Shown: positions 14,583 through 36,036 of the stretch, one piece after another
Numbering within the stretch: position 1 is the stretch's first letter
Layout: every line of letters starts with the position of its first letter
NCBI GenBank assembly: GCA_031269685.1
Contig: JAISYU010000054.1
Span: 1 to 39,040 of the forward strand
Direction: 5' to 3'
From: Dysgonamonadaceae bacterium
Lineage (GTDB): Bacteria > Bacteroidota > Bacteroidia > Bacteroidales > Azobacteroidaceae
DNA length: 39,040 bases
Notes under the pieces: generated by a model
The model's database searches: none
What the model was told of the DNA's origin: nothing
The model's input: only the letters and a program-made list of their open reading frames with translations
Position numbers and translations under genes: made by a program

Positions 14583-15051
14583 AAGATTTTATATCATACA
14601 GCAATCTCCGTCTGTAATAATTTGCAGCATCGGAAAGTACATCGACGGATATGGTAGGGTTCTGTTTGTCCCCTATCATATAATTCTCAGTCATTCCAAT
14701 AAAACGGACATATTCAACCTGTTCATAGTCTGGGTCGGTAATAAGGTTTTCATTCAGCCATTCGGATTGTGCCGTCACGCGCTCTATTAGTTTTTTCTTC
14801 GGAGCATAAAGCCTTATATCAACATCAGGCAAAAGGGCGCGTAAATTTTTGCCGTCCTGCATAAAAATAGAGCAGTCATAACGGATTTGTTCAACGTTTG
14901 CTGCATTTTCGGCTATTAACTTGTTCAACTCTTCCGCGCCGTCAGCAAAGAAAACATCGTCAAGATACATCTTTCCTCCTTGTTCAAAGGTTACGATAAA
15001 ACAAAAGCCAGCCGATGATGGTTTGGCAAATATTATTTTTTCTTGTGCCAT
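14581..15051 (-). CDS. Standalone TerL nuclease-domain-like (RNase H-fold) protein, apparently degenerate
   Basis: FCFIVTFEQGGKMYLDDVFFADG...YDCSIFMQDGKNLRALL...LIERVTAQSEWLNENLI...SVDVLSDAANYYRRRLL matches the layout of terminase C-terminal nuclease domains. Confidence 0.55.
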   Translation of the reverse strand: MAQEKIIFAKPSSAGFCFIVTFEQGGKMYLDDVFFADGAEELNKLIAENAANVEQIRYDCSIFMQDGKNLRALLPDVDIRLYAPKKKLIERVTAQSEWLNENLITDPDYEQVEYVRFIGMTENYMIGDKQNPTISVDVLSDAANYYRRRLLYDIKS

Positions 15052-16355
15052 GATTCAAATTTTTGAAGTTGTATTTGTTTAACACCTAAATGGTATATCA
15101 TTCCCATCAACAGCATATCAAGATAGTCGGGCGACCTTTGTATTATCTCCTTCATTCTTTCCTTTGAAATGATACGCTTTTTCGCCTTGTCATCATCTAT
15201 ATTGGCATTGATAAGCAACTGTAATTCTTCAATAATCAACTGTTTCTGTTCCTCATTACAAATTATCTGCAACTCGCGATTATTGATTTTCTCGGCAAGT
15301 TTGAACGCACACTCATCTTTGATTGAAGCGTACAAATCAGGATTAAGAGCAGTCGCCCCGCCGTGAAACGTCTTTATACCCTCTATGTAACTGTTTAGAT
15401 ATGCACCTAACCCGTCACTATCGGCTACTGTTTGAGAATGTCCTACGCCGTTTTTTTGCATCAAATCCCGCAGATCTTCCTCTATACTTTTGCCTGTCGA
15501 TTTATCTTTGTCTATCTTAATCGTGCATCGTAGCCCGTTCCATAAGCCGACAATAAATTTATCCCGCCCCTGCATTGCAAGATCGGCTGATATAGATTTC
15601 TTTCCTGCCGGCGCCGTGTTCGTGAAACAGTCGGAAATTGCATCAAAATCACACAGGCTGCCAGGTTCATTTTCATAATCCCAATTTCCATACAATAACC
15701 GTTCACGCATCGCCTTGTCTTTTATCTCGTTAAGGTTGCGTATGTAATCGTCCGTCAAATATGGATTATCAGTACATAGAGCAGGGATATAGCAATACGG
15801 CGCTTTGATTATTCCCAATATATGGGGTTTGTAAAAATCGGTATATAGCCAATTTTTTTTAGGATTACAGGTTAAAAACAGTTTGGGGGGTATGCCGTAT
15901 TTATCATTTAGATGCCGACCTATTCGCGATTTTAATACTTCAAATGCTTTGTAATGCACTTCACCAGCCTCCTCGATCCAACCTCCGGTATATTCCTTTG
16001 ACCCTAACCGCTCAAACATCGGATCTTTTTTAGGATATAGCGTTAAGTCCAGAAAAATAATCTCAGAGCCGTTGGAAAACTTTATACCGTTATCATTCGG
16101 CTTATAATGCGGGAAATTGTGCCGCTGCGCCACTTTCGTCCACGTAACTAATACGGATTCCCGACAATCTTTCAGATTATTGCGCCCGATAAACCATCGC
16201 GTTTCAGGTAAGAAATATCCGCATTGCATCAACCATTCACAACCCAAAAAACTTTTACCGGAACCGGCTGAGCCACCATAAAGAATGTACTTATAAATAT
16301 CATCTTTAAGATATTCATACGCCTTTCGCTGTCTCAGATTGATCACCTCTTGCAT
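15033..16355 (-). CDS. terL: Terminase large subunit
   Basis: Walker A GGSAGSGKS, EAGEVHYKAF near Walker B region, nuclease domain SADLAMQGRDKFIVGLW and TVADSDGLGAYL. Confidence 0.93.
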   Translation of the reverse strand: MQEVINLRQRKAYEYLKDDIYKYILYGGSAGSGKSFLGCEWLMQCGYFLPETRWFIGRNNLKDCRESVLVTWTKVAQRHNFPHYKPNDNGIKFSNGSEIIFLDLTLYPKKDPMFERLGSKEYTGGWIEEAGEVHYKAFEVLKSRIGRHLNDKYGIPPKLFLTCNPKKNWLYTDFYKPHILGIIKAPYCYIPALCTDNPYLTDDYIRNLNEIKDKAMRERLLYGNWDYENEPGSLCDFDAISDCFTNTAPAGKKSISADLAMQGRDKFIVGLWNGLRCTIKIDKDKSTGKSIEEDLRDLMQKNGVGHSQTVADSDGLGAYLNSYIEGIKTFHGGATALNPDLYASIKDECAFKLAEKINNRELQIICNEEQKQLIIEELQLLINANIDDDKAKKRIISKERMKEIIQRSPDYLDMLLMGMIYHLGVKQIQLQKFESWHKKK

Positions 16356-16893
16356 CTTCTTTTATATTAGGCATTGATGGTAGGAAACTAAAACCGGTAA
16401 ATTCAACCTTTTTGCCTTCGGATGTGTGATCAATTTTTATTGGCTGTTTATTCCATATTTCCGGCTTCTTCTGTTTGAGCCACAATGCAGCCGCACCCGT
16501 ATCCGGTGGTAGTTCCTGTATTGTTTCTTGGACAATCTCTAAATCTGTAATAATTTTCCCCTTGCCATCGCAATAAGGACAATCTTCGTCTCGACCACCG
16601 CAGTCACATTTTTTCTCAATGAATTTCCGTACCTGCGTTTTTACTTTTAATCCGGTAGCCCTACGGTAAAGCGAGTTTTCCACCACTATTTCAAGTGGTT
16701 TGCGTCCCCTTTTTAATGCCTTTAATAATTCGGGCGTTTTTTGAACAAGGGTAGAGAAATAAGAGGTGTTATAACCAAAATACTTTGCTATGTCCTTGTT
16801 GTCAAGACCATCGCGCGCTAAACCTTCGACTATCGCCAAATTATCAGCATCATTAATCGGATCTGCGAAAGTGTATGTTATTTTTCGTGCCAT
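16315..16893 (-). CDS. terS: Terminase small subunit-like, with zinc-ribbon-like Cys cluster
   Basis: N-terminal HTH (AIVEGLARDGLDNKDIAKYFGYNTSYFSTLVQKTPELLKALKRGR); CDCGGRDEDCPYCDGKG; upstream of terL. Confidence 0.75.
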   Translation of the reverse strand: MARKITYTFADPINDADNLAIVEGLARDGLDNKDIAKYFGYNTSYFSTLVQKTPELLKALKRGRKPLEIVVENSLYRRATGLKVKTQVRKFIEKKCDCGGRDEDCPYCDGKGKIITDLEIVQETIQELPPDTGAAALWLKQKKPEIWNKQPIKIDHTSEGKKVEFTGFSFLPSMPNIKEDARGDQSETAKGV

Positions 16894-17627
16894 TATAAAA
16901 ACATTTCTGTTTTTTGCATCAATTCTTCGCCCTTTACATACTTGTCATCGGGATTGTATCCAAAGAGTTCAAGAAAAGCGGCTTTATTGTCTATATTGTC
17001 AAAAGAAACCATAAAATAATTTTCACTTGCTTGCCAGTTATCTTTTATGCTCTCTTTGATGTTTTGCTTTAATTCCTTCATTGCTTCCCTACGTTCTTCG
17101 TAAGGTTTGTCAATGTCAGCCATGTCCTTTTCTATGAGGTCTATCGGTGCACTTTTAAGAGCCAACGATGTTTGAGCCGCAATCAAGTTCATATCCCCAT
17201 CATCCAAGCCCGCCAATTTGTAATCTATCTCAGGTAGTATTGCCCCCAGCAAGTCCAAGTCAAACGCCCCTTGTACAGTTTTTGAGTTCATGAAGACATT
17301 TTGTTCTTTTTCTGTCTTCTCATCCAAATTGACCTTTTCAACCTTTATATCGTAATCCGCCTCTGTCGTTCCGTCATAACCGTTCAGAATATCCAGCGCC
17401 TTTAACCGTTTGTGTCCACTTATCAGCGTGCCGGTACGTTCATTCCAAACGATACCGCCGCAAAAGGCTACCCGCTTAAAATTCTTTTTGAGTTCGGAAA
17501 CTACATTGGCATTTTCTTTACGTGGATTGTAAGGTGCGATCTGTATCTGGCTACGTTTTATTACAACCGTTTCGGATTCGTTATAATTTCGCTTCTGCTC
17601 TTTTCCTTTCGTGATATTCATATTCAA
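16893..17627 (-). CDS. ParB/sulfiredoxin-fold domain protein
   Basis: IQIAPYNPRKENANVVSELKKNFKRVAFCGGIVWNERTGTLISGHKRLKAL is ParB-like; paired with PAPS reductase. Confidence 0.85.
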   Translation of the reverse strand: MNMNITKGKEQKRNYNESETVVIKRSQIQIAPYNPRKENANVVSELKKNFKRVAFCGGIVWNERTGTLISGHKRLKALDILNGYDGTTEADYDIKVEKVNLDEKTEKEQNVFMNSKTVQGAFDLDLLGAILPEIDYKLAGLDDGDMNLIAAQTSLALKSAPIDLIEKDMADIDKPYEERREAMKELKQNIKESIKDNWQASENYFMVSFDNIDNKAAFLELFGYNPDDKYVKGEELMQKTEMFL

Positions 17628-18285
17628 ATACTTTTTGTTCTGTTATTGGAAACATCTTTATTACTTTTCGGTAATCATCATGATGATTACGCTTGCACCA
17701 TAAAAGAAAATTTATATCATTTACCGCACAACCGGAAGATGCTGAACCCACCTTCCCATAATTTATCGGCTCAATAAGATCGTTTTGCCTGATATATGCC
17801 AGCACATCCCTGTTTTTCCATTCGGACAGAGGATAGCATTTTTTTGTCTTTTCACAAATACAATTACCCTCGTATGTCCGTAACATTAACCGCCTGTTTA
17901 GCCCGTCCGATTGCTTGAAACCATAAAAAACCCATTCGATGCCCGTTTTCATACGGATAGAATCGGTTATTTTTCCGAGTGTGTAGTTTTTAACTTTGCC
18001 GTTTTGCCTCATTCCGAGATTGCCTGATTTTATGTAACTTGGCAAAGCATAGTGTAATGTCTGTATGAATTGTACACTATACCGATTTTCCGCCCACAAG
18101 ATATATTTATTAATGTGTTCCAGATTCGGAACAATGTACATATATACGCAAATAATATCTTTAAAGTGTGGGCGAATCATATCTAATAAGGCTATACTGT
18201 CTTTACCCGTTGCAGAGTGAAACAATATAGCCTTATCTGTCGCCGAAGCAACTTTTAAAATTGCCTCAAAGGGTGACATCACCAT
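17581..18285 (-). CDS. PAPS reductase/PP-loop ATP pyrophosphatase family protein
   Basis: PP-loop LFHSATGKDSIALLDMI, plus GFKQSDGLNRRLML, YPLSEWKNRDVLAYIRQNDL. Confidence 0.87.
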   Translation of the reverse strand: MVMSPFEAILKVASATDKAILFHSATGKDSIALLDMIRPHFKDIICVYMYIVPNLEHINKYILWAENRYSVQFIQTLHYALPSYIKSGNLGMRQNGKVKNYTLGKITDSIRMKTGIEWVFYGFKQSDGLNRRLMLRTYEGNCICEKTKKCYPLSEWKNRDVLAYIRQNDLIEPINYGKVGSASSGCAVNDINFLLWCKRNHHDDYRKVIKMFPITEQKVFEYEYHERKRAEAKL

Positions 18286-18356
18286 CTTTCTCCTACCCTG
18301 TTACGCAACCAGGTTTGTACCTGTGGGTTTAACCCCCTTGCTCCTCCTTCTGCCAT
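18279..18356 (-). CDS. Candidate 25-aa micro-ORF overlapping the PAPS reductase start
   Basis: MAEGGARGLNPQVQTWLRNRVGERW*; its TGA lies inside the ATGGTGATG start region of the next gene. Confidence 0.45.
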   Translation of the reverse strand: MAEGGARGLNPQVQTWLRNRVGERW

Positions 18357-18382
18357 AATTTTGTAAATTAAAGTGTTAATAA

Positions 18383-18832
18383 TTATTTATAGTTGTTTTC
18401 AACTATCTCACCAAGACTGAATATAAACAAGCCATCAGAATCTTTTTCATCACCGTTAATTTCTTCATCGTTTAACAGCAAATCATAAAGGCTTTCAGGT
18501 TTTTCTTTTTTATATTCATCGTATAATATACGGTTTTCATCGAAACTTCTTAGACTGTCATAGGTCACAGCCTCATAACCTTTACATCGACAAACAAAAA
18601 ACTTGCCGGTATAGCCCACCCTGAATTTGATGAACTCTATATGTTTTAACCCGTAATATTTATTACCTGCTTTTGTAAAATTCGGTTTAGGTTCTTTACT
18701 TTCAACCGATAATCTACTAAAATAAAATTGAGATACGGCACGATATTCACGTACTTTTGTACCTGCAACAATTTCATCTGCATATCGTGTCTGCAAAATC
18801 AATTCAATGCTATTGTCTTTGTTTAGAATCAT
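18383..18832 (-). CDS. ASCH/PUA-like domain protein
   Basis: ELILQTRYADEIVAGTKVREYRAVSQFYFSRL (K/G-x-K-x-x-E-x-R signature) and YTGKFFVCRCKGYEAV. Confidence 0.65.
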   Translation of the reverse strand: MILNKDNSIELILQTRYADEIVAGTKVREYRAVSQFYFSRLSVESKEPKPNFTKAGNKYYGLKHIEFIKFRVGYTGKFFVCRCKGYEAVTYDSLRSFDENRILYDEYKKEKPESLYDLLLNDEEINGDEKDSDGLFIFSLGEIVENNYK

Positions 18833-18836
18833 GCAA

Positions 18837-18867
18837 CAAAAGTACTATTATTTTTTTTAAACGCAAG
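18837..18867 (-). promoter_or_regulatory. Bacteroidetes-type promoter for ASCH gene
   Basis: Minus-strand -7 TACTTTTG (plus CAAAAGTA 18837-18844) and imperfect -33 CTTG (plus CAAG 18864-18867), 19-nt spacing; predicted near-leaderless start at 18832. Confidence 0.5.
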
Positions 18868-18909
18868 GGTATAAACGGAAAAGTTATTTATATTTTATTT
18901 ATACCCTTG
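18864..18909. repeat. 12-bp perfect inverted repeat, candidate operator
   Basis: CAAGGGTATAAA (18864-18875) and TTTATACCCTTG (18898-18909), overlapping the predicted -33 element. Confidence 0.75.
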
Positions 18910-18923
18910 TGTCTGATGCTTTA

Positions 18924-19448
18924 TCACCACTCAAATACACGGTTATTTGAATATTTGCAGCCCTTATAATCATGAAACCGCCCAAAGGTAATTATTTTAC
19001 CGGTCGCTTGATTCAGCAAGGCAAAGCGTGAACACTCAAAAATTGCACATTGTTCTAACAATTCACCGACTTCATCTGAATCAAACCCATATTCATTAAT
19101 AACAGGCACAACATCGTTAATAAAAAATATCTCGCTGTCGGTCTGGTCGTTTTTTGCTTTGACATTGTGCAAAACGCCATTATGAGAGAAGCAAACACCG
19201 TCTTGTTTGAACGGGTGGCTATTTGAAGTTTTTACTGAGCCTTGCGTTGCAAACCTGAAATGCAACACGCAAGGCTCGTTTGTCTCTACCTTGCCGACTT
19301 CATTTAGAAACCGCTCAATAGAAAGTGTCTTAAACAACCTTCTCTTTGTGCAGAACCCGAACCCATGCGGGTTGTACACAGCCGCTTTTCGCAGCATATT
19401 TTCAGACGGTAATTTAATACCAGCCTCTTTAACTATGATTACACACAT
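18924..19448 (-). CDS. Class II glutamine amidotransferase domain protein
   Basis: N-terminal Cys nucleophile (MCVIIVKEAG), LHFRFATQGSVKTSNSHPF, FSHNGVLHN, TDSEIFF. Confidence 0.85.
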   Translation of the reverse strand: MCVIIVKEAGIKLPSENMLRKAAVYNPHGFGFCTKRRLFKTLSIERFLNEVGKVETNEPCVLHFRFATQGSVKTSNSHPFKQDGVCFSHNGVLHNVKAKNDQTDSEIFFINDVVPVINEYGFDSDEVGELLEQCAIFECSRFALLNQATGKIITFGRFHDYKGCKYSNNRVFEW

Positions 19449-19771
19449 ATTTTTATCAAATTTGCCTTTTTAAAACATCTAAATTCTTGCCGTTCAGTAT
19501 CATAATAGATCTGTACCGTGTCGTTTTTTGCCCGCCGGTCGTTGCCTGATATTTCAGGCATTATCGCCGGTGAAAATGTGCCGTATGCTTCGCGTAAAGT
19601 TGAATCTACCTTTTGATAGTAGAATTTCACTATACGCTGTTTGAAGGCAAACAGCAGTTTAATATTTAACCATGCAGCCCTCAAAGCCTCTGACATCGTA
19701 AAACCATTACGCTTTACAAACTGCCACGCAAGGCGCATTATCTCTCTTAGTGTTGTACTATTGATTTTCAT
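19439..19771 (-). CDS. DUF2693/SH3-like beta-barrel type protein
   Basis: REIMRLAWQFVKRNGFTMSEALRAAW...VKFYYQKVDSTLREAYGTFSPAIMPEISG...DTVQIYYDTERQEFRCFKKANLI. Confidence 0.6.
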   Translation of the reverse strand: MKINSTTLREIMRLAWQFVKRNGFTMSEALRAAWLNIKLLFAFKQRIVKFYYQKVDSTLREAYGTFSPAIMPEISGNDRRAKNDTVQIYYDTERQEFRCFKKANLIKICV

Positions 19772-19797
19772 TTTTTTTACATGTTAAAGCCGCACCC

Positions 19798-20661
19798 TTA
19801 TGCAAGGGTTGCGGCGCGGTTAATAAAATATTGTTTGTCGCTCTCTGTTATAAATGGTATTGCTGAGATTTCTGTTACAGGCTCTGTTAATTGTGTCAAT
19901 TTTGAAAACTCAATTAACAGAATTACAAAGCGTAACCACATCGCAATTTTATCAGGGTCGGTTGTGCCTTGATGCTGTCTAAATTCAAGGGTGTTGTGTC
20001 TCAAATATGAAACAGGGTTTAACTTAAAATACCGATCTGACCGAAACAAGTTAGATATTTCGGCACGATCAGCGGTCGCTTTGATGCTTTCGACGCTTAT
20101 TGTTTTAAGAGACTTACAATAAATATTGTCGTTTGCCCGCCTCGACTTTGACATAAACTTGTCAATTACACCTTCTAAATAATAGTAGTTGACGAAGACG
20201 TTCTTGTAATGAACATCATCTACATTTTGCAGCCCGATATGCACGTGCAAGCCACATGTTTTATTGACTTTTGCACCCGCTTCGTTAAGAGCGTCACAAA
20301 CTTTCTGTAATTTGTTCAGGTCTCTCTCTGATTTTAAGACAGGCGTAACGACTTCTAAACAATTACCATCAGCACCACCTGATATAGAACTGTCAGACAC
20401 CACTTTAAAATGGTTTTTCGATTTGTGGTTGTAATTTTCAAAAACCACTGCTACGCCTTTCTTTGACGCAATTTGAATAAATTGCTCTTTTTTTACGTTG
20501 AAACATTCTATTTCAACGCCCGCCGTTACGAAACGACTTTTGTCGTAATCGTTTATTATACGGCTCGCTTCTCTGGCTGTTAAGCCGATCTCAACAAGCG
20601 ATTTGCGCTTGTTTTGGTTTGTGTCTGTGCTTGTTAGCACGTTTTTAATTCTTTCGTTCAT
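19798..20661 (-). CDS. Amidoligase (glutamine-synthetase-like COOH-NH2 ligase) family protein
   Basis: FVTAGVEIECFN, VVSDSSISGGADGNCLEVVTPVL, NKTCGLHVHIGL, YLRHNTLEFRQHQGTTDPDKIAMWLRFV. Confidence 0.83.
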   Translation of the reverse strand: MNERIKNVLTSTDTNQNKRKSLVEIGLTAREASRIINDYDKSRFVTAGVEIECFNVKKEQFIQIASKKGVAVVFENYNHKSKNHFKVVSDSSISGGADGNCLEVVTPVLKSERDLNKLQKVCDALNEAGAKVNKTCGLHVHIGLQNVDDVHYKNVFVNYYYLEGVIDKFMSKSRRANDNIYCKSLKTISVESIKATADRAEISNLFRSDRYFKLNPVSYLRHNTLEFRQHQGTTDPDKIAMWLRFVILLIEFSKLTQLTEPVTEISAIPFITESDKQYFINRAATLA

Positions 20662-22055: not shown

Positions 22056-22355
22056 TCATTTTAATTCAATCGGTCGCCAGTGGGTTGCTTCTACGGGATT
22101 ATCGTTACTTTCCGAATAAAAAATATCATTGCGATTACAAAATTCCGCAACGATAACATCACAATTTTTTGGGGGACGGGGAGTTTTTACAAAATAACAA
22201 CAGCCGTTTTCTTCCGGCAACTCATCCTTAACGCTTATCCATCGTTGAGCAAATTCGACGCCGGCGATGAAGTCTTCTGCAACAAATTCGGCATTTGCCT
22301 TATCTGTCCTTTGGGCGTACTCTTGTGCTGCTTCTTTTTTTGTTTTCATAATCAA
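22056..22355 (-). CDS. DUF551-like hypothetical protein
   Basis: RWISVKDELPEENG ... ATHWRPIELK. Confidence 0.65.
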   Translation of the reverse strand: MIMKTKKEAAQEYAQRTDKANAEFVAEDFIAGVEFAQRWISVKDELPEENGCCYFVKTPRPPKNCDVIVAEFCNRNDIFYSESNDNPVEATHWRPIELK

Positions 22356-23005
22356 TATCTGAATTTTGTAAAGTGAATAATTGTCATACGATCGTTTGTA
22401 TCATAATCTTTGAACCATGCGATAAAATCGTCGCAGGAAAGCCCGTCGTTTACTGCAAGATCTTTATAGGAGAAACACCGCCCTCCTACGCTCACATCGA
22501 GCCGAAGCGGGAAACTGCCTTTAATGTCATTCCCGCCAAAATCAATTGGATGTACGGGAATTATTTTTAATTCCTGTGTTCCAATCCCGCTGTCAATAAC
22601 CGGGATAGCACGTTTGTACTTTTCAGTACTCAACAGTTCGTTTATGAACTCTCTAACTGCACTCGTTCCGAATACGAACAGGTTAGTACTACCTTCCCTA
22701 CTGTAAGGTTTGCCGTTCCATTGATACACGACCAATACGGCGTTACCTTGCTGTACCTTTTCGATACGGTGTTTCCACAATCCTTTTTTGTCGGCGCGGA
22801 TGGTGTGGAGTTTACTTCGTATTGACGGGTCGTTACAATCCCAGTCCATGTAGATAATTTTGTTATCCTTGCCTGAACACATTAAACATCCCTGCCCGTT
22901 AATAACGAACTGTGCAAAATGCGTTTGCTCTCCCGCTCTGGGATGCGTCGCCGGAAAAACGCGGCTCAACGGCATCCAGTAAATTTTAATTTTCTGTTTC
23001 ATCAT
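22352..23005 (-). CDS. Hypothetical phage protein
   Basis: 217-aa ORF overlapping neighbours by a few bases. Confidence 0.6.
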   Translation of the reverse strand: MMKQKIKIYWMPLSRVFPATHPRAGEQTHFAQFVINGQGCLMCSGKDNKIIYMDWDCNDPSIRSKLHTIRADKKGLWKHRIEKVQQGNAVLVVYQWNGKPYSREGSTNLFVFGTSAVREFINELLSTEKYKRAIPVIDSGIGTQELKIIPVHPIDFGGNDIKGSFPLRLDVSVGGRCFSYKDLAVNDGLSCDDFIAWFKDYDTNDRMTIIHFTKFRY

Positions 23006-24147: not shown

Positions 24148-25782
24148 TTAATTTTGAAATTGTTTTAATTCCTTAACCAATGCTTCGCAGAGTACCCGCG
24201 ACATGTTTACCTCGACAGCGTTTCCGATATACTTCTTTAGCTCTGCCTGTGTGCCTATAAGCGTATAATCTTCGGGAAATCCCATTATTCGCTTTAACTC
24301 CGGTATTTTCAACATCCGCATCTTGATGTCAACAATGCCGTACAATGCCATAAATGCCTTTATCCGGCGCATCGGCTCGGTGTCCGTTTCGTAAACTTCA
24401 ATCGCTATTTGTCCGGTTTCTGTGGAAATCAAATAGGGCGGTTTTTTATCCATTCGGGCGATTATGGTAAAACATGGATTTTCTACCGAGCCGCCTGTGC
24501 TCAAGTATTGCGGATTCATTAAGTAATGCGGGCTAACCAACGATAACCGGTCTTTTACCGTGAGGGTAGGCGCTGGGGCTTCTATCGAAACGGCGTTTAT
24601 TTCTTGGTTTGGCTGCCCGTTATACCTGCCTATGAATTGGGCTTGCACTAACTCTTGATTGCCTCCGGTAGCGGTTACGGTGCGGGCTGGTTGGTACACC
24701 GAAAAAACTTTGCTTTTCGGGTTGCCTGTGTTTCGCTGCTGAATGAAACTCGCATTTATTAGTGCGTGATGGTCGATTGGCGTTACCGTGTGTGCGGGTT
24801 CTTCTACTGAAAAATTTTTGCTTTCGGGGTGTCCGCCGTAATACTTTGATAAAAATTTTGTTTGTACTACTCCTAATCTGTTTTGGCAGCTTACTACGGG
24901 GCAAGGCTCATCTATTGACGGCGGTACATGTTTACCTGTTGCGCCGTTTATTGAGTTGTATTTTAATATCCATTTATCCTTACCGCCTGCGACAAATTTT
25001 ATCAATCCTGCGTATATGCGTTCTAATGTCCTATCCGATAGCGGCTTTTTGCGCGTGAAAATGCTTTCGCCTTCGTCCGAAAAGTCTAAAACGTCTTTTA
25101 CCGGCTTCCATTTCCTGGTGTTACCGAACAAACTTTCACTGCCTGTTTTTGAGTAGGCAGGCTTCGGAAATGTAATCGGTAATCCGTTCTTTGCGAAAAT
25201 TCCGAAAAACCGCTTCCTGCTGGTATACGCTCCGTAATTGGCGGCATTTAAAATCCGGTGTTTGAATGTGTAACCGTATTGTTTGACCTGCTTAACCCAT
25301 TGCAGGTATTTACGCCCGTTGTCCTTGCTTATTGGCTTTCCGTTTTCGTCCAAATCTCCCCAGCACATAAATTCCTCAACATTTTCAATCTGGATGTAAT
25401 CGGGATTAATGTCTTCTATGTACCTGAATAAATGTTCTGCAAGTGTCCGGCTGTCGGCATCGCGGGGCTTGCCGCCTTTGGCTTTGCTGAAATTCGTACA
25501 TTCCAAACTCGCATGTAACACTATTAACGCTTCGGGATAAGCGGCTTTCATTTTTTCAATGTGCGCCACGAGCTGCGATAAATCCAATATGCGTATGTCT
25601 TCGGTAAAATGCAGTGCGTCGGGATGGTTGGCTGCGTGGCTGGCGATAGCGTTTGCATCGTGGTTTACGCAAGCGATTACTTTGGCGCATTTTTCGCCTT
25701 TATATTTTGCTTTCTCTACTCCGGTACTTGTACCGCCTGCGCCGCAAAAGAGGTCAATGTATAGAAGTTTAATATTGCTCAT
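24148..25782 (-). CDS. DNA (cytosine-5) methyltransferase with repeat-built variable region
   Basis: LYIDLFCGAGGTSTGVEKA (motif I), ECTNFSKAKGG (motif IV position), IENVEEF (ENV), YGAYTSRKRFFGIFA, RIMGFPEDY, YIGNAVEVNM. Confidence 0.92.
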   Translation of the reverse strand: MSNIKLLYIDLFCGAGGTSTGVEKAKYKGEKCAKVIACVNHDANAIASHAANHPDALHFTEDIRILDLSQLVAHIEKMKAAYPEALIVLHASLECTNFSKAKGGKPRDADSRTLAEHLFRYIEDINPDYIQIENVEEFMCWGDLDENGKPISKDNGRKYLQWVKQVKQYGYTFKHRILNAANYGAYTSRKRFFGIFAKNGLPITFPKPAYSKTGSESLFGNTRKWKPVKDVLDFSDEGESIFTRKKPLSDRTLERIYAGLIKFVAGGKDKWILKYNSINGATGKHVPPSIDEPCPVVSCQNRLGVVQTKFLSKYYGGHPESKNFSVEEPAHTVTPIDHHALINASFIQQRNTGNPKSKVFSVYQPARTVTATGGNQELVQAQFIGRYNGQPNQEINAVSIEAPAPTLTVKDRLSLVSPHYLMNPQYLSTGGSVENPCFTIIARMDKKPPYLISTETGQIAIEVYETDTEPMRRIKAFMALYGIVDIKMRMLKIPELKRIMGFPEDYTLIGTQAELKKYIGNAVEVNMSRVLCEALVKELKQFQN

Positions 25783-31896: not shown

Positions 31897-32634
31897 CTAA
31901 AAAGGTGTTTTGTTAAATGATAATTCCAATCCGGAATCTGCTATGTGCACGGTTTTTCCGGTGGCTTTGCGTATGCCTTCCTTAAATTCCTGCTGCGCAT
32001 GGCTGTTACTGTTGGAAAGATGTATCAGCACTATATTGTTTACCGCCCGCAAGTCGTTTGCAAGCAGAGTTTTAATACATGTGTCATACGACATGTGGCT
32101 TTGCAATGTCCGATTTCTCTGTACTGCCGATATTCTTCCATTCCGCGTGTTTTCATCTAAAATATCCATGCGATAATTTACCTCAATTAGGATATTGTTA
32201 AGCGTCAGGAATCGTTTAGGGCAATAGTAACAATCCGTAAGAAACAGTATAACTCCGCTTTCTTTATGATTAATCAGAAACCCCAAACACGGGACATCAT
32301 GCGGAACGTTAAAAGGTATGACCGAAAAATCAGCAATTTCAATTTGGCTGTTCGGCTCGACTGCAATTAATTTTTCACTCGTTATTCCGCTATCCTGCTT
32401 ATGCTCTTTTGAGACATAAACAGGAATAGCATATTGCAAAAAGTCTTTAATTGCCCGTGAATGATCCGAATGTATGTGACTTGACAGGCAGCCGGCAATC
32501 TTATTGATATTGAAATTCAAAGCGCGTTGCACTTCTGCAAACTTTACGCCCGCTTCCAATATCAGGGCTTCGCTATCATTTTCTAAAATGTAGCAATTCC
32601 CCGCACTTGAACTACCTAATACTTTCAGTTTCAT
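31897..32634 (-). CDS. MBL-fold metallo-hydrolase
   Basis: Start MKLKVLGSSSAGNCYIL; SSHIHSDHSRAI metal motif; FLTDCYY; VLIHLSNSNSH. Confidence 0.88.
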   Translation of the reverse strand: MKLKVLGSSSAGNCYILENDSEALILEAGVKFAEVQRALNFNINKIAGCLSSHIHSDHSRAIKDFLQYAIPVYVSKEHKQDSGITSEKLIAVEPNSQIEIADFSVIPFNVPHDVPCLGFLINHKESGVILFLTDCYYCPKRFLTLNNILIEVNYRMDILDENTRNGRISAVQRNRTLQSHMSYDTCIKTLLANDLRAVNNIVLIHLSNSNSHAQQEFKEGIRKATGKTVHIADSGLELSFNKTPF

Positions 32635-32644
32635 ACGGCAACAG

Positions 32645-33415
32645 TTAAAAATCGGGCTGTGCGCCTTGTTGTTGTTGCGCTTCAGTTCTTGGGGCTTCAG
32701 TTCTTGGGGCTTCAGTTCGTGTGTTTGGCTCAGAAGCTTCTGCAAAACTTAAAGGCGTTCCGGTGTTTGCTTTCTCCGAGACTTCCTGTTTGACCTTTTC
32801 TGTGACATCTTCGTAGGGTACATCCTGCACCCCCTGCTCTTCGGCTGTGTACATTGCGCCGAGTTGCGTCGGAAACGCTTCCCGCAACGCCTGTACGATA
32901 GCAGTTTTCCTTATCATCGTGGACTTTTTTTCATTCCACAATGCCTGTTTCTTGTCGTATTCAGAGAGAGACACACGTGATACATACGGGAATTTGCGAT
33001 CCTTGCGGTGCACCTCAGCCCATCCGCCGAGCAATACATCAGTAGGAAGGCTGAAATTTCCCTCTACTTCTATAATGTCGTTGCCGCGCTTGATGATCAA
33101 TCCGGCTTTGAATCCGTCATACTCGGCGCATTGTTCGGCTCGTTTCATTAGCGCCTCTTTGCTGACAACCATCTGAGCCGGACTGTTGCCAAACTTTATT
33201 AAATAGGCTTCTTTTAAGAATGGGTTTAACTGATTGTATTTGCAGATGCAAATAAATTGTGTTAAATCCTGATCGGTGACTTTGCCGTCACCCTTTGTCA
33301 GGAAATCCCTTACTATCGGATATGACAATGTCACATCTTCACCTGCCACCTTATAAGTGGTTTTACCTCTGTCTTTGTCCTGCACAACAGGACTGTTTGT
33401 CTGTCTGTGTTCCAT
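32645..33415 (-). CDS. recT: RecT-family ssDNA annealing protein
   Basis: LTQFICICKYNQLNPFLKEAYLIKFGNSPAQMVVSKEALMKRAEQCAEYDGFKAG. Confidence 0.9.
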   Translation of the reverse strand: MEHRQTNSPVVQDKDRGKTTYKVAGEDVTLSYPIVRDFLTKGDGKVTDQDLTQFICICKYNQLNPFLKEAYLIKFGNSPAQMVVSKEALMKRAEQCAEYDGFKAGLIIKRGNDIIEVEGNFSLPTDVLLGGWAEVHRKDRKFPYVSRVSLSEYDKKQALWNEKKSTMIRKTAIVQALREAFPTQLGAMYTAEEQGVQDVPYEDVTEKVKQEVSEKANTGTPLSFAEASEPNTRTEAPRTEAPRTEAQQQQGAQPDF

Positions 33416-33426
33416 ATTAAACTATT

Positions 33427-35400
33427 TTAATTGATTGTAAGTTCTTTACATGAAGCGTCAACAATCAAATTGATTATTTGACTGTTAATCGGAGGTATCT
33501 CCGTAACGCTTTCTCGGTTGTCGATAAAGATAGGAGCGCAAGCGCCGTTGAAATCGCACAGGGTTTTTATTATATCCAACCCGATGTTTATTTTATCTGC
33601 GTTGTTGGTATCTAAAAACTTCGCGCCTGTTGCCTTGCTGATAAGGATGCAATCCGGCTTTTCTCCTCCGTTAATCTGCTGGGAAAACATCTTAAACCGT
33701 ACCAAATTGAATTTGAGATTTACGCGGCGTTCTACCTCGTTCATTTGTTCCTTTACCAATGAATCAGCAATAAACTCTTGCTTTTCGAGGTCGGCTTTTT
33801 GTTGCGCAAGGGCTTTTTCCTCTTTCAGTAGTTCGGCTTTCCTCTTGTTGTTGGCGTCGATTACGTCCTTTAATGAGAAATTCCGGTTTATGTTGTCTAA
33901 CAGCGTTTGCATTTCTCGCTTTTTTGCTGTCAGTTCGACATTGTCCGGCGTCGCAGGACGTGAGTTAAGCGATGCTTGCAGTTTGTCTATTTTTCCCTGA
34001 ATAACGTTGTATGCAGGTATATCAGAAGGCAATGTTGCTTCAAGCCTTGCAGGTGGGTTGGTGAGTTTTGCCCCGTATTGCTCTAATAGAGGTTTATTAG
34101 CCTCTATCTTGACGGTGATTGCCTCAATGTCGGCTTTCATTTCCTCATTGCGGCTCTCCAACTCCGTCTTGCGGGATGCAAAAGATTTGCCTTCAATGTT
34201 TATCTTTTGCAGAGAGGTTGCTCTTTGCTTCTCAAAGGCTTCCTTAGATTCAAGGATTTTATCCTCCGGATATTTTTGTCCGCAGGTCGGGCAAATCGCA
34301 TCGTCGTTTGGGTTATACTCTTTGGCGTTTTCATCCGTGTATTCCTTCCGTTTTGCGGTTAATTGAATATTCAAGTCCGCAATTTTTAGCAGGTTGGTAC
34401 GTATTCCTGCCTTAATATTCTCTATCTCCCGAAGGGAATTATCGTTCTGCCGCGTCAAAGTAGTATAAAGGGCTTCCGTTTCGTAATACCCTGCGTACTC
34501 TTTGTTATACGCTTCACGTTCTTCCTGCTGAACCTGGAAGATCGCCTGTTGCTGCTCGCTTTTCAGGGTGTTTATCTCTCCCTGAATTTTGAGTTGCGCT
34601 TCGTGTTCCTGTCGGCTTGCTTCTGAGACATTTTTAAGCGCGGCTTCTATGTCCTCCAATTCTTTTTGTGCTGCCTGCCGCTCGGCTTCGAGAGCAGCAA
34701 AATCCGGCGTTGCCGGCGTCGCCCTTGTTACCTCGTCAATGCGGGCGGGAATTAACTCCAAAGCCTCCTTGATTTTCTTTTTCCTTGCGGAAATCTCGGC
34801 TTTGTAATCCGCAAGGCTTTTGCCGGATAACTTTGCGAGCAGTTCTGTAAACTCGGCGCGGTCGTTGGCGATTTCTTCCAACGTTATGCTGCCCGCGATA
34901 CGCAGCAGCATCTCGCGTTGCACTTGCCAATCAAGGCGCGGGAAATGAAGCGGGTTGGTCAGCATACGGAACAAGTCCTCGCTGATAATATCATTTACCT
35001 TTGCCTTGTATTCGCTTTCCTTCAAAGGTACGCCGTTATAGAAATAGGACGTCGTATTCCCCTTTAATTCGGGCTCTGCTTTACCGCGTGGCGTTACCCA
35101 ATCTTCCGACAGAACGCGGCGGAGTTCTACCGTTTGCCCGTCCACGTCCAGCAGTGCCGTTACTTCGTGGTCAAGTCTCGGAATAACTTTGCCGGTTGTG
35201 TCGTTGGTTTTTATTCCGAACTTCGTGTCACTGTTACCGGCGGCATCCTTACCGAACAACACCCAGTTAAAGGCGTCTGCGATGGTGCTTTTGCCGGTAG
35301 CGTTTGCGCCGCGGACCTCCGTAACCTGTCCAAAATCTATTGTCAGGCTCTTAATGCCCTTGAAGTTTACGAGGTTCATTTGTTTAATCCCTACCTCCAT
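33427..35400 (-). CDS. SbcC/Rad50-like AAA ATPase with zinc-hook motif
   Basis: Start MEVGIKQMNLVNFKGIKSLTIDF; Walker A GANATGKSTIADAF; CPTCGQKY within long coiled coil. Confidence 0.88.
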   Translation of the reverse strand: MEVGIKQMNLVNFKGIKSLTIDFGQVTEVRGANATGKSTIADAFNWVLFGKDAAGNSDTKFGIKTNDTTGKVIPRLDHEVTALLDVDGQTVELRRVLSEDWVTPRGKAEPELKGNTTSYFYNGVPLKESEYKAKVNDIISEDLFRMLTNPLHFPRLDWQVQREMLLRIAGSITLEEIANDRAEFTELLAKLSGKSLADYKAEISARKKKIKEALELIPARIDEVTRATPATPDFAALEAERQAAQKELEDIEAALKNVSEASRQEHEAQLKIQGEINTLKSEQQQAIFQVQQEEREAYNKEYAGYYETEALYTTLTRQNDNSLREIENIKAGIRTNLLKIADLNIQLTAKRKEYTDENAKEYNPNDDAICPTCGQKYPEDKILESKEAFEKQRATSLQKINIEGKSFASRKTELESRNEEMKADIEAITVKIEANKPLLEQYGAKLTNPPARLEATLPSDIPAYNVIQGKIDKLQASLNSRPATPDNVELTAKKREMQTLLDNINRNFSLKDVIDANNKRKAELLKEEKALAQQKADLEKQEFIADSLVKEQMNEVERRVNLKFNLVRFKMFSQQINGGEKPDCILISKATGAKFLDTNNADKINIGLDIIKTLCDFNGACAPIFIDNRESVTEIPPINSQIINLIVDASCKELTIN

Positions 35401-35402
35401 AC

Positions 35403-35684
35403 TTACCCCTCCAAAATCTTTTTTACGTCCGACATCCGATACATGCGTTTGCCGCCCACTTCTATGGAGCGCAAATAATTTTCTTTGTGCCACCGCCAGA
35501 GGGTGGAGAGATCTACGGACAACGTTTTCGCCGTCCGCTTGCGAGTAAGGTACTGTTCGGCGGGCTGTTCCTCCTTTTCGTAAATGGAACGCGCGCCGTC
35601 CAGAATCCTGTTCGCAAAATCATTCAGTTGTTCGCCCGTGAGCGAGATAACGATGTTCTGTTTGTTTAAAATTTCTTCGATCAT
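35403..35684 (-). CDS. Helix-turn-helix DNA-binding (excisionase/MerR-like) protein
   Basis: YLTRKRTAKTLSVDLSTLWRWHKENYLRSIEVGGKRMYRMSDVKKILE. Confidence 0.8.
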   Translation of the reverse strand: MIEEILNKQNIVISLTGEQLNDFANRILDGARSIYEKEEQPAEQYLTRKRTAKTLSVDLSTLWRWHKENYLRSIEVGGKRMYRMSDVKKILEG

Positions 35685-35891: not shown

Positions 35892-35964
35892 CCACGTTGT
35901 TCTCGGTATCCTACTTGTCCTCCTTAAACAGTACCGACTTTCAGAAAATACCTCTTTATGTCAG

Positions 35965-36036
35965 TTGGGGATAGCAGATTCGAACTGCTGCCTGCGACCG
36001 ATGAGGTTCGCCGTGTTACCACTACACTAATCCCCT
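35965..36036 (-). tRNA. tRNA-like element, anticodon ambiguous (possibly CAT)
   Basis: Minus strand AGGGGAT-TA-GTGT-AGTGGTA-ACAC-G-anticodon arm-AGGC-AGCAG-TTCGAAT-CTGCT-ATCCCCAA. Acceptor, D and T arms fold well; anticodon arm carries one extra A; 1:72 is A:A. Confidence 0.6.

Follow-up and report, generated by a model that had tools for sequence, protein, structure and literature searches.

A prophage cassette of amidoligase, glutamine amidotransferase, PP-loop and ParB genes probably consists of two separable modules

We analysed a 39,040-nucleotide stretch of a Dysgonamonadaceae bacterium (assembly GCA_031269685.1, contig JAISYU010000054.1, positions 1 to 39,040; hereafter the window), in which a run of minus-strand genes with biochemical functions opens the late operon of a Bacteroidetes prophage, just upstream of the DNA-packaging genes. 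A first-pass annotation had read this cassette as one modification pathway and as a candidate for a single undescribed system. We conclude, with a probability of roughly 85%, that it consists of two separable modules and is not a single obligate system. Module A is an amidoligase and a class II glutamine amidotransferase (GATase II), often with a WYL_2/DUF2693 protein, and is a published, widespread pair. Module B comprises an ASCH-fold protein, a micro open reading frame (micro-ORF), a PP-loop ATPase, a ParB-like protein and the small and large terminase subunits (TerS and TerL); it is a conserved packaging-gene neighbourhood that many phages carry without module A. The part of the cassette that appears undescribed sits in module B and is chiefly a small basic protein.

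The separation is seen in phages that carry one module alone. Module B without module A is found in Riemerella phage RAP44, in Bacteroides phage BS-TP2 and on most contigs with the PP-loop gene, 12 of 50 of which have an amidoligase. Within module B, the ParB gene comes directly after the PP-loop gene in nearly all of 80 PP-loop loci, and a terminase is nearby in most. The WYL_2 gene is frequent with module A and is also found near module B in phages that lack module A. Six large contigs carry both modules far apart.

The two modules are also found together. The full combination occurs in one operon in the window and at loci L001, L002, L036, L045/L046, L052 and L134 (WYL_2 not always). It is also found at L012, L013 and L035, where the ParB/PP-loop lineage is another one and the ASCH gene is missing. 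The first-pass annotation had named a lack of co-occurrence beyond chance as a refutation, and the contigs do not bear this out: the PP-loop gene is present on 16 of 22 contigs whose GATase II is a close relative and on 0 of 28 whose GATase II is distant, counts that leave shared ancestry uncorrected. In a set of 393 Bacteroidales genomes, a strong GATase match is present in two (with a marginal third at 4e-11) and the PP-loop gene in six; both genomes with a strong GATase match, which belong to one genus, carry the PP-loop gene too. Modules A and B are genuinely associated, but phage lineage confounds the association. These counts speak for one obligate pathway made up of the whole combination, a reading that is nevertheless improbable, and we rejected a single unified pathway because each module is found alone in many phages. 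Of the earlier claim, a cassette of the modification type whose active sites are intact is supported; the whole combination as one undescribed system is not. A literature search, mostly of non-subscription sources, turned up no report of a phage module that combines ASCH and PP-loop genes.

All seven genes reported at 16893-20661 are present. They are on the minus strand, tightly packed, several of them overlapping, and lead directly into the terminase genes:

19798..20661, minus strand: glutamine synthetase-like amidoligase (Amidoligase_2, PF12224), 287 amino acids (aa), module A; Pfam E 1.3e-38
19439..19771, minus strand: WYL_2/DUF2693 (PF10902) SH3-barrel small protein, 110 aa; Pfam E 1.2e-17
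18924..19448, minus strand: class II glutamine amidotransferase, glutaminase domain alone, 174 aa, module A; GATase_4 E 3.8e-7
18383..18832, minus strand: ASCH-fold protein, 149 aa, module B; from AlphaFold2 model and Foldseek
18279..18356, minus strand: micro-ORF, 25 aa, MAEGGARGLNPQVQTWLRNRVGERW; homologues in L012, L013 and L036
17581..18285, minus strand: PP-loop ATPase, annotated as PAPS reductase, module B; PAPS_reduct (PF01507) E 6.2e-8
16893..17627, minus strand: ParB_N-type protein with a C-terminal domain, module B; phrog_9353 (2e-65) and ParB-like PHROGs
16315..16893, minus strand: terminase small subunit TerS; phrog_309, 1.8e-25
15033..16355, minus strand: terminase large subunit TerL; Terminase_3 and Terminase_6N (Pfam), phrog_2

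The amidoligase and WYL_2 genes are separated by a gap of 26 nt, and the following spacings (negative for overlaps) are -10 for WYL_2/GATase II, 91 for GATase II/ASCH, 25 nt for ASCH/micro-ORF, -6 for micro-ORF/PP-loop, -47 for PP-loop/ParB, -1 for ParB/TerS, where the TerS start shares 1 nt with the ParB stop, and -41 for TerS/TerL. The micro-ORF stop TGA overlaps a PP-loop start codon within TGATG, and in this overlap, at 18279, the PP-loop gene likely starts.

A loss of catalytic residues in most orthologues had been named beforehand as an outcome that would speak against the cassette; the residues are instead invariant or nearly so. In homologues from viral contigs, the amidoligase residues E50, E52, D90, H139, E226 and R228 (GxExE, D90, H139, EFR) do not vary among 31 sequences, and neither do C2, R65 and N90-G91 of the GATase II among 18, with T103/D104 conserved in at least 90%. 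The GATase II active site had been called apparently intact, and it is so in these homologues too. In the PP-loop protein, S24, G27, K28 and D29 (SxxGKD) are invariant and D127/R132 reach at least 90% (52-56 homologues). Judging from these residues, the module A and PP-loop enzymes look functional.

For module A, the predicted GATase II would draw ammonia from glutamine, and the predicted amidoligase would spend ATP to form an amide on a carboxylate substrate (a cell-wall peptide or a protein). Phage amidoligase-GATase II pairs were reportedly predicted from comparative genomics by Iyer et al. in 2009 to make novel amide linkages, and such pairs are known from phiEco32, OM43 phages and mycobacteriophage Marvin. 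The pairing in the window is of this kind, the amidoligase lying beside or close to the GATase in 70 of 73 related phage GATase loci. As in the known pair, both enzyme families stand side by side with intact active-site residues; the window differs in its short, glutaminase-only GATase, which usually comes with WYL_2 and adjoins the PP-loop-ParB-terminase module.

Somewhat more probably than otherwise, module A works independently as an accessory pair: it would alter the wall of the host cell and block superinfection, and its place next to module B would reflect mosaic phage architecture. Most phages with the amidoligase-GATase II pair lack module B, and PMC10580990 cites such a suggestion for phiEco32. 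Direct adjacency of the modules in about ten distinct loci, and the presence of both on large contigs even where they are far apart, argue the other way. This role for module A is compatible with every explanation of module B.

In module B, the label of PP-loop PAPS reductase fits in its first half only. The invariant SxxGKD motif identifies a PP-loop ATPase, and PAPS reductase activity is improbable because the protein family has no conserved cysteines (no Cys column above 26/52). A true PAPS reductase (CysH) is accordingly an unlikely candidate, the PP-loop domain and fold being present and the conserved catalytic C-terminal Cys missing; the NCBIfam cysH score is far under the cut-off. A DndC-type sulfur enzyme was ruled out by the same lack of conserved Cys. 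As for the QueC family (PF06508), Pfam gives PF01507 only and the zinc cysteines are not conserved. The AlphaFold model (predicted local distance difference test, pLDDT, 96) shows about the same distance to TilS, TtuA, LarE, FAD synthase and CysH (Foldseek; template-modelling (TM) score about 0.5). A scan with the single PP-loop sequence gave no matches, and the PP-loop loci were gathered with an alignment-based search. At L115 (4977-5663), the PP-loop gene is split into two ORFs by an apparent frameshift and its neighbours look intact. In a human gut phage contig (L203, 4151-5666), the order is PP-loop, ParB and a second PP-loop gene directly after.

The ParB profile of the window matches Spo0J (6sdk, 8e-5). 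NPRK is invariant among the ParB relatives and SGHKR is found in the window protein, that is, the ParB_N motifs NPR and GxxR are present. At L011-L013 and L035, the gene order is ParB_N, PP-loop, a protein of 117-128 aa and terminase. The fused ParB proteins match this separate protein in their C-terminal part (E 1.2e-5 for L143; 8e-5 by profile comparison). The C-terminal domain is fused in some loci and separate in others, and the set of parts stays the same. A ParABS role is not suggested: no ParA was found among the window proteins scanned, the ParB neighbours in the loci examined are PP-loop and terminase genes, and the combination of a ParA partner with a helix-turn-helix/parS domain is not seen. 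We also rejected a known defence system, since PADLOC shows for the cassette solely a ParB-domain similarity to type II methyltransferases. The ParB/PP-loop genes of Riemerella phages are also present in GenBank OQ791282 (Shigella phage Henu10), at coordinates identical to those in Riemerella phage PT15 (ON933637), and the host label of OQ791282 may be wrong.

Pfam did not reach the ASCH family for the window protein that had been called ASCH-like. The call is backed by an AlphaFold2 model (mean pLDDT 85.8) for which the top Foldseek matches are nearly all ASCH domains, including ZmASCH (best E 1.8e-3), and the predicted fold gives the assignment good but not overwhelming support. In most Bacteroidetes-type loci, the PP-loop gene has the ASCH gene upstream of it. 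Lactobacillus phage JNU_P7 likewise has an ASCH-like gene immediately before its PP-loop gene (L200, 2988-3455), and the association thereby reaches Firmicutes phages. Elsewhere in the window, the protein encoded at 22352-23005 on the minus strand (phrog_8581) has a stretch resembling ASCH-type sequence (LHTIRADKK...VYQWNGKPYS) and is possibly a second ASCH-like protein; a relative of it adjoins a clear ASCH-like gene in L011 (13381-14377).

The 25-aa micro-ORF, which the first-pass annotation listed without comment, is a real and conserved gene. Its homologues are found in two genomes of the same genus (L012 and L013, where it lies before the terminase) and in L036, and a similar small ORF is present in L011. 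The ratio of nonsynonymous to synonymous change (pN/pS) is 0.43 in the window micro-ORF family of four and 0.34 in the MNGAG family, which indicates purifying selection, with synonymous sites near saturation. These homologues and ratios rule out a chance ORF. Searches for the DNA pattern in viral and genome collections gave mostly chance matches beyond the known relatives, and tblastn of the peptide in phages gave no match.

At the equivalent site, other phages encode different small proteins that are usually strongly basic and glycine-rich. Of 75 loci, 45 have a small ORF with a charge of at least +5 directly ahead of the PP-loop gene; for the other genes of the cassettes, which served as controls, the figure is 33 of 321 (Fisher 8e-19). 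Restricted to genes with any small upstream ORF, the counts are 45/53 and 33/104 (1e-10). At least two Gly are found in the last six residues of 28 out of 38 distinct members, compared to 98 of 1888 comparable basic ORFs, and a terminal GG in 11/38 compared to 7/1888. For example, Lactobacillus phage JNU_P7 has in its cluster three dissimilar basic proteins with a common G-S-[KR]-G-G end, and the ORFs ending [GS]xGG number 3 of 389 in its genome, all inside the cluster. In Pasteurella phage Pm86 (49.9 of 56 kb scanned), the 2 of 561 ORFs ending SGS are neighbours within the cluster. The probability of such clustering is about 1e-3 in each phage, for a motif picked after inspection. We do not favour the GG tail as a by-product of a Shine-Dalgarno sequence: the GG codons vary, and the tail tracks the stop codon and not the downstream start. 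In the mostly non-subscription literature searched, this small basic protein partner of module B appears undescribed, and it may be a substrate of the module B enzymes.

As the leading mechanism, we tentatively propose that the PP-loop ATPase acts with ParB before packaging. The ATPase would activate its substrate with ATP, and would modify or conjugate the small protein or the DNA bound by it; the ParB domain would bring this modification to phage DNA. It would work in this with the ParB_N and ASCH-fold proteins and with a dedicated partner protein that is very small and usually basic and rich in glycine. The overlaps of the module B genes run into the terminase genes, which suggests translational coupling of the enzymes to the terminase.

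Modification of a protein is favoured by the parallel with QueC-family PP-loop enzymes, whose modified protein substrates carry terminal glycine motifs (PMC11996544, PMC13279940). As in the module B class, though not in the window with its own peptide, the QueC-family systems (type IV CBASS, qatABCD) combine a PP-loop ATPase with a partner that has an unstructured glycine-motif end. Module B differs in having another PP-loop family, glycines that are mainly C-terminal rather than N-terminal, and no zinc-binding cysteines. A specific form of this idea, peptide tagging beside the terminases, in which the ATPase would adenylate the glycine-rich end and join the basic proteins to phage DNA or to a packaging protein under ParB guidance, is unlikely.

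Modification of DNA is favoured because ParB_N-type methyltransferases stand in the equivalent place in other phages, for example upstream of TerL in phage NatCom_35866. They share with the window a ParB_N-like domain and a modifying enzyme, the PP-loop ATPase replacing the methylase. It is possible, at a tentative level, that ParB selects phage DNA, the ATPase modifies a base or the backbone, and the basic protein binds DNA as a cofactor, the modification protecting the DNA or marking it for packaging. The window ParB matches ParB-type methyltransferases (PADLOC, PHROG), and Bacillus phage 031MP002 has a ParB-PAPS-methyltransferase gene string. Dnd systems pair the ParB-superfamily DndB with the PAPS reductase-like DndC (PMC12839542), an arrangement shared by Dnd/Ssp phosphorothioation and the window. 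Unlike those systems, the window family has no conserved Cys, and the scans of window proteins recognised no cysteine desulfurase, DndD or DndE, which makes phosphorothioation unlikely; PADLOC gave no Dnd/Ssp match for the cassette proteins. The cassette also holds no known DNA-modifying partner, which weighs against DNA modification in general.

The module B gene pair is known by name. A PP-loop protein adjacent to a ParB_N protein in a prophage is the arrangement of IbrA/IbrB, the PAPS reductase-like and ParB-like co-activators of prophage gene expression (PMC4490671), compared here by their domains. A regulatory pair of this type would control late gene expression, with the small basic peptide as an RNA- or DNA-binding regulator. 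The location at the beginning of the late operon and the basic, helix-like peptides fit such a role, but we consider it unlikely: the conserved ATPase motifs point to catalysis, and the genes are coupled to terminase and not to a regulatory region. The window also differs from IbrA/IbrB by this coupling, by the added ASCH and small proteins and by the extra ParB C-terminal domain.

Several points weigh against a modification centred on the small basic protein. The window micro-ORF is itself atypical, with a charge of +2 and an end in VGERW; the flexible glycine-motif end is seen for the class and not for this peptide. About 40% of the PP-loop loci have no qualifying small ORF by the criteria used. 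The charge threshold of at least +5 was fixed after viewing the data, and the enrichment tests take related phages as independent, so that their P values overstate the strength. Finally, the PP-loop chemistry is not readable from the structure because the TM score to any solved enzyme is only about 0.5.

Other genes of the window lie outside the cassette. A C5 cytosine DNA methyltransferase (24148-25782, minus strand) is strikingly like the enzyme of Bacteroides phage BS-TP2 (phmmer 3e-232, L010 137-1972). At 31897-35493 on the minus strand, a metallo-beta-lactamase-fold hydrolase (phrog_392) is followed by an SbcC-like AAA ATPase (phrog_77). A tRNA-like gene with a two-base anticodon (35964-36036, minus strand; ARAGORN) has no Rfam match and is doubtful.

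"PAPS reductase" genes have been reported as phage sulfur-metabolism genes (e.g. PMC10434257). Despite this labelling, the packaging-linked family described here is without the conserved cysteines that the reaction needs. The small basic protein, which is usually missed by annotation, is a concrete and testable substrate candidate for an enzyme pair known from Bacteroidetes, Lactobacillus and Pasteurella phages and from many uncultivated ones.

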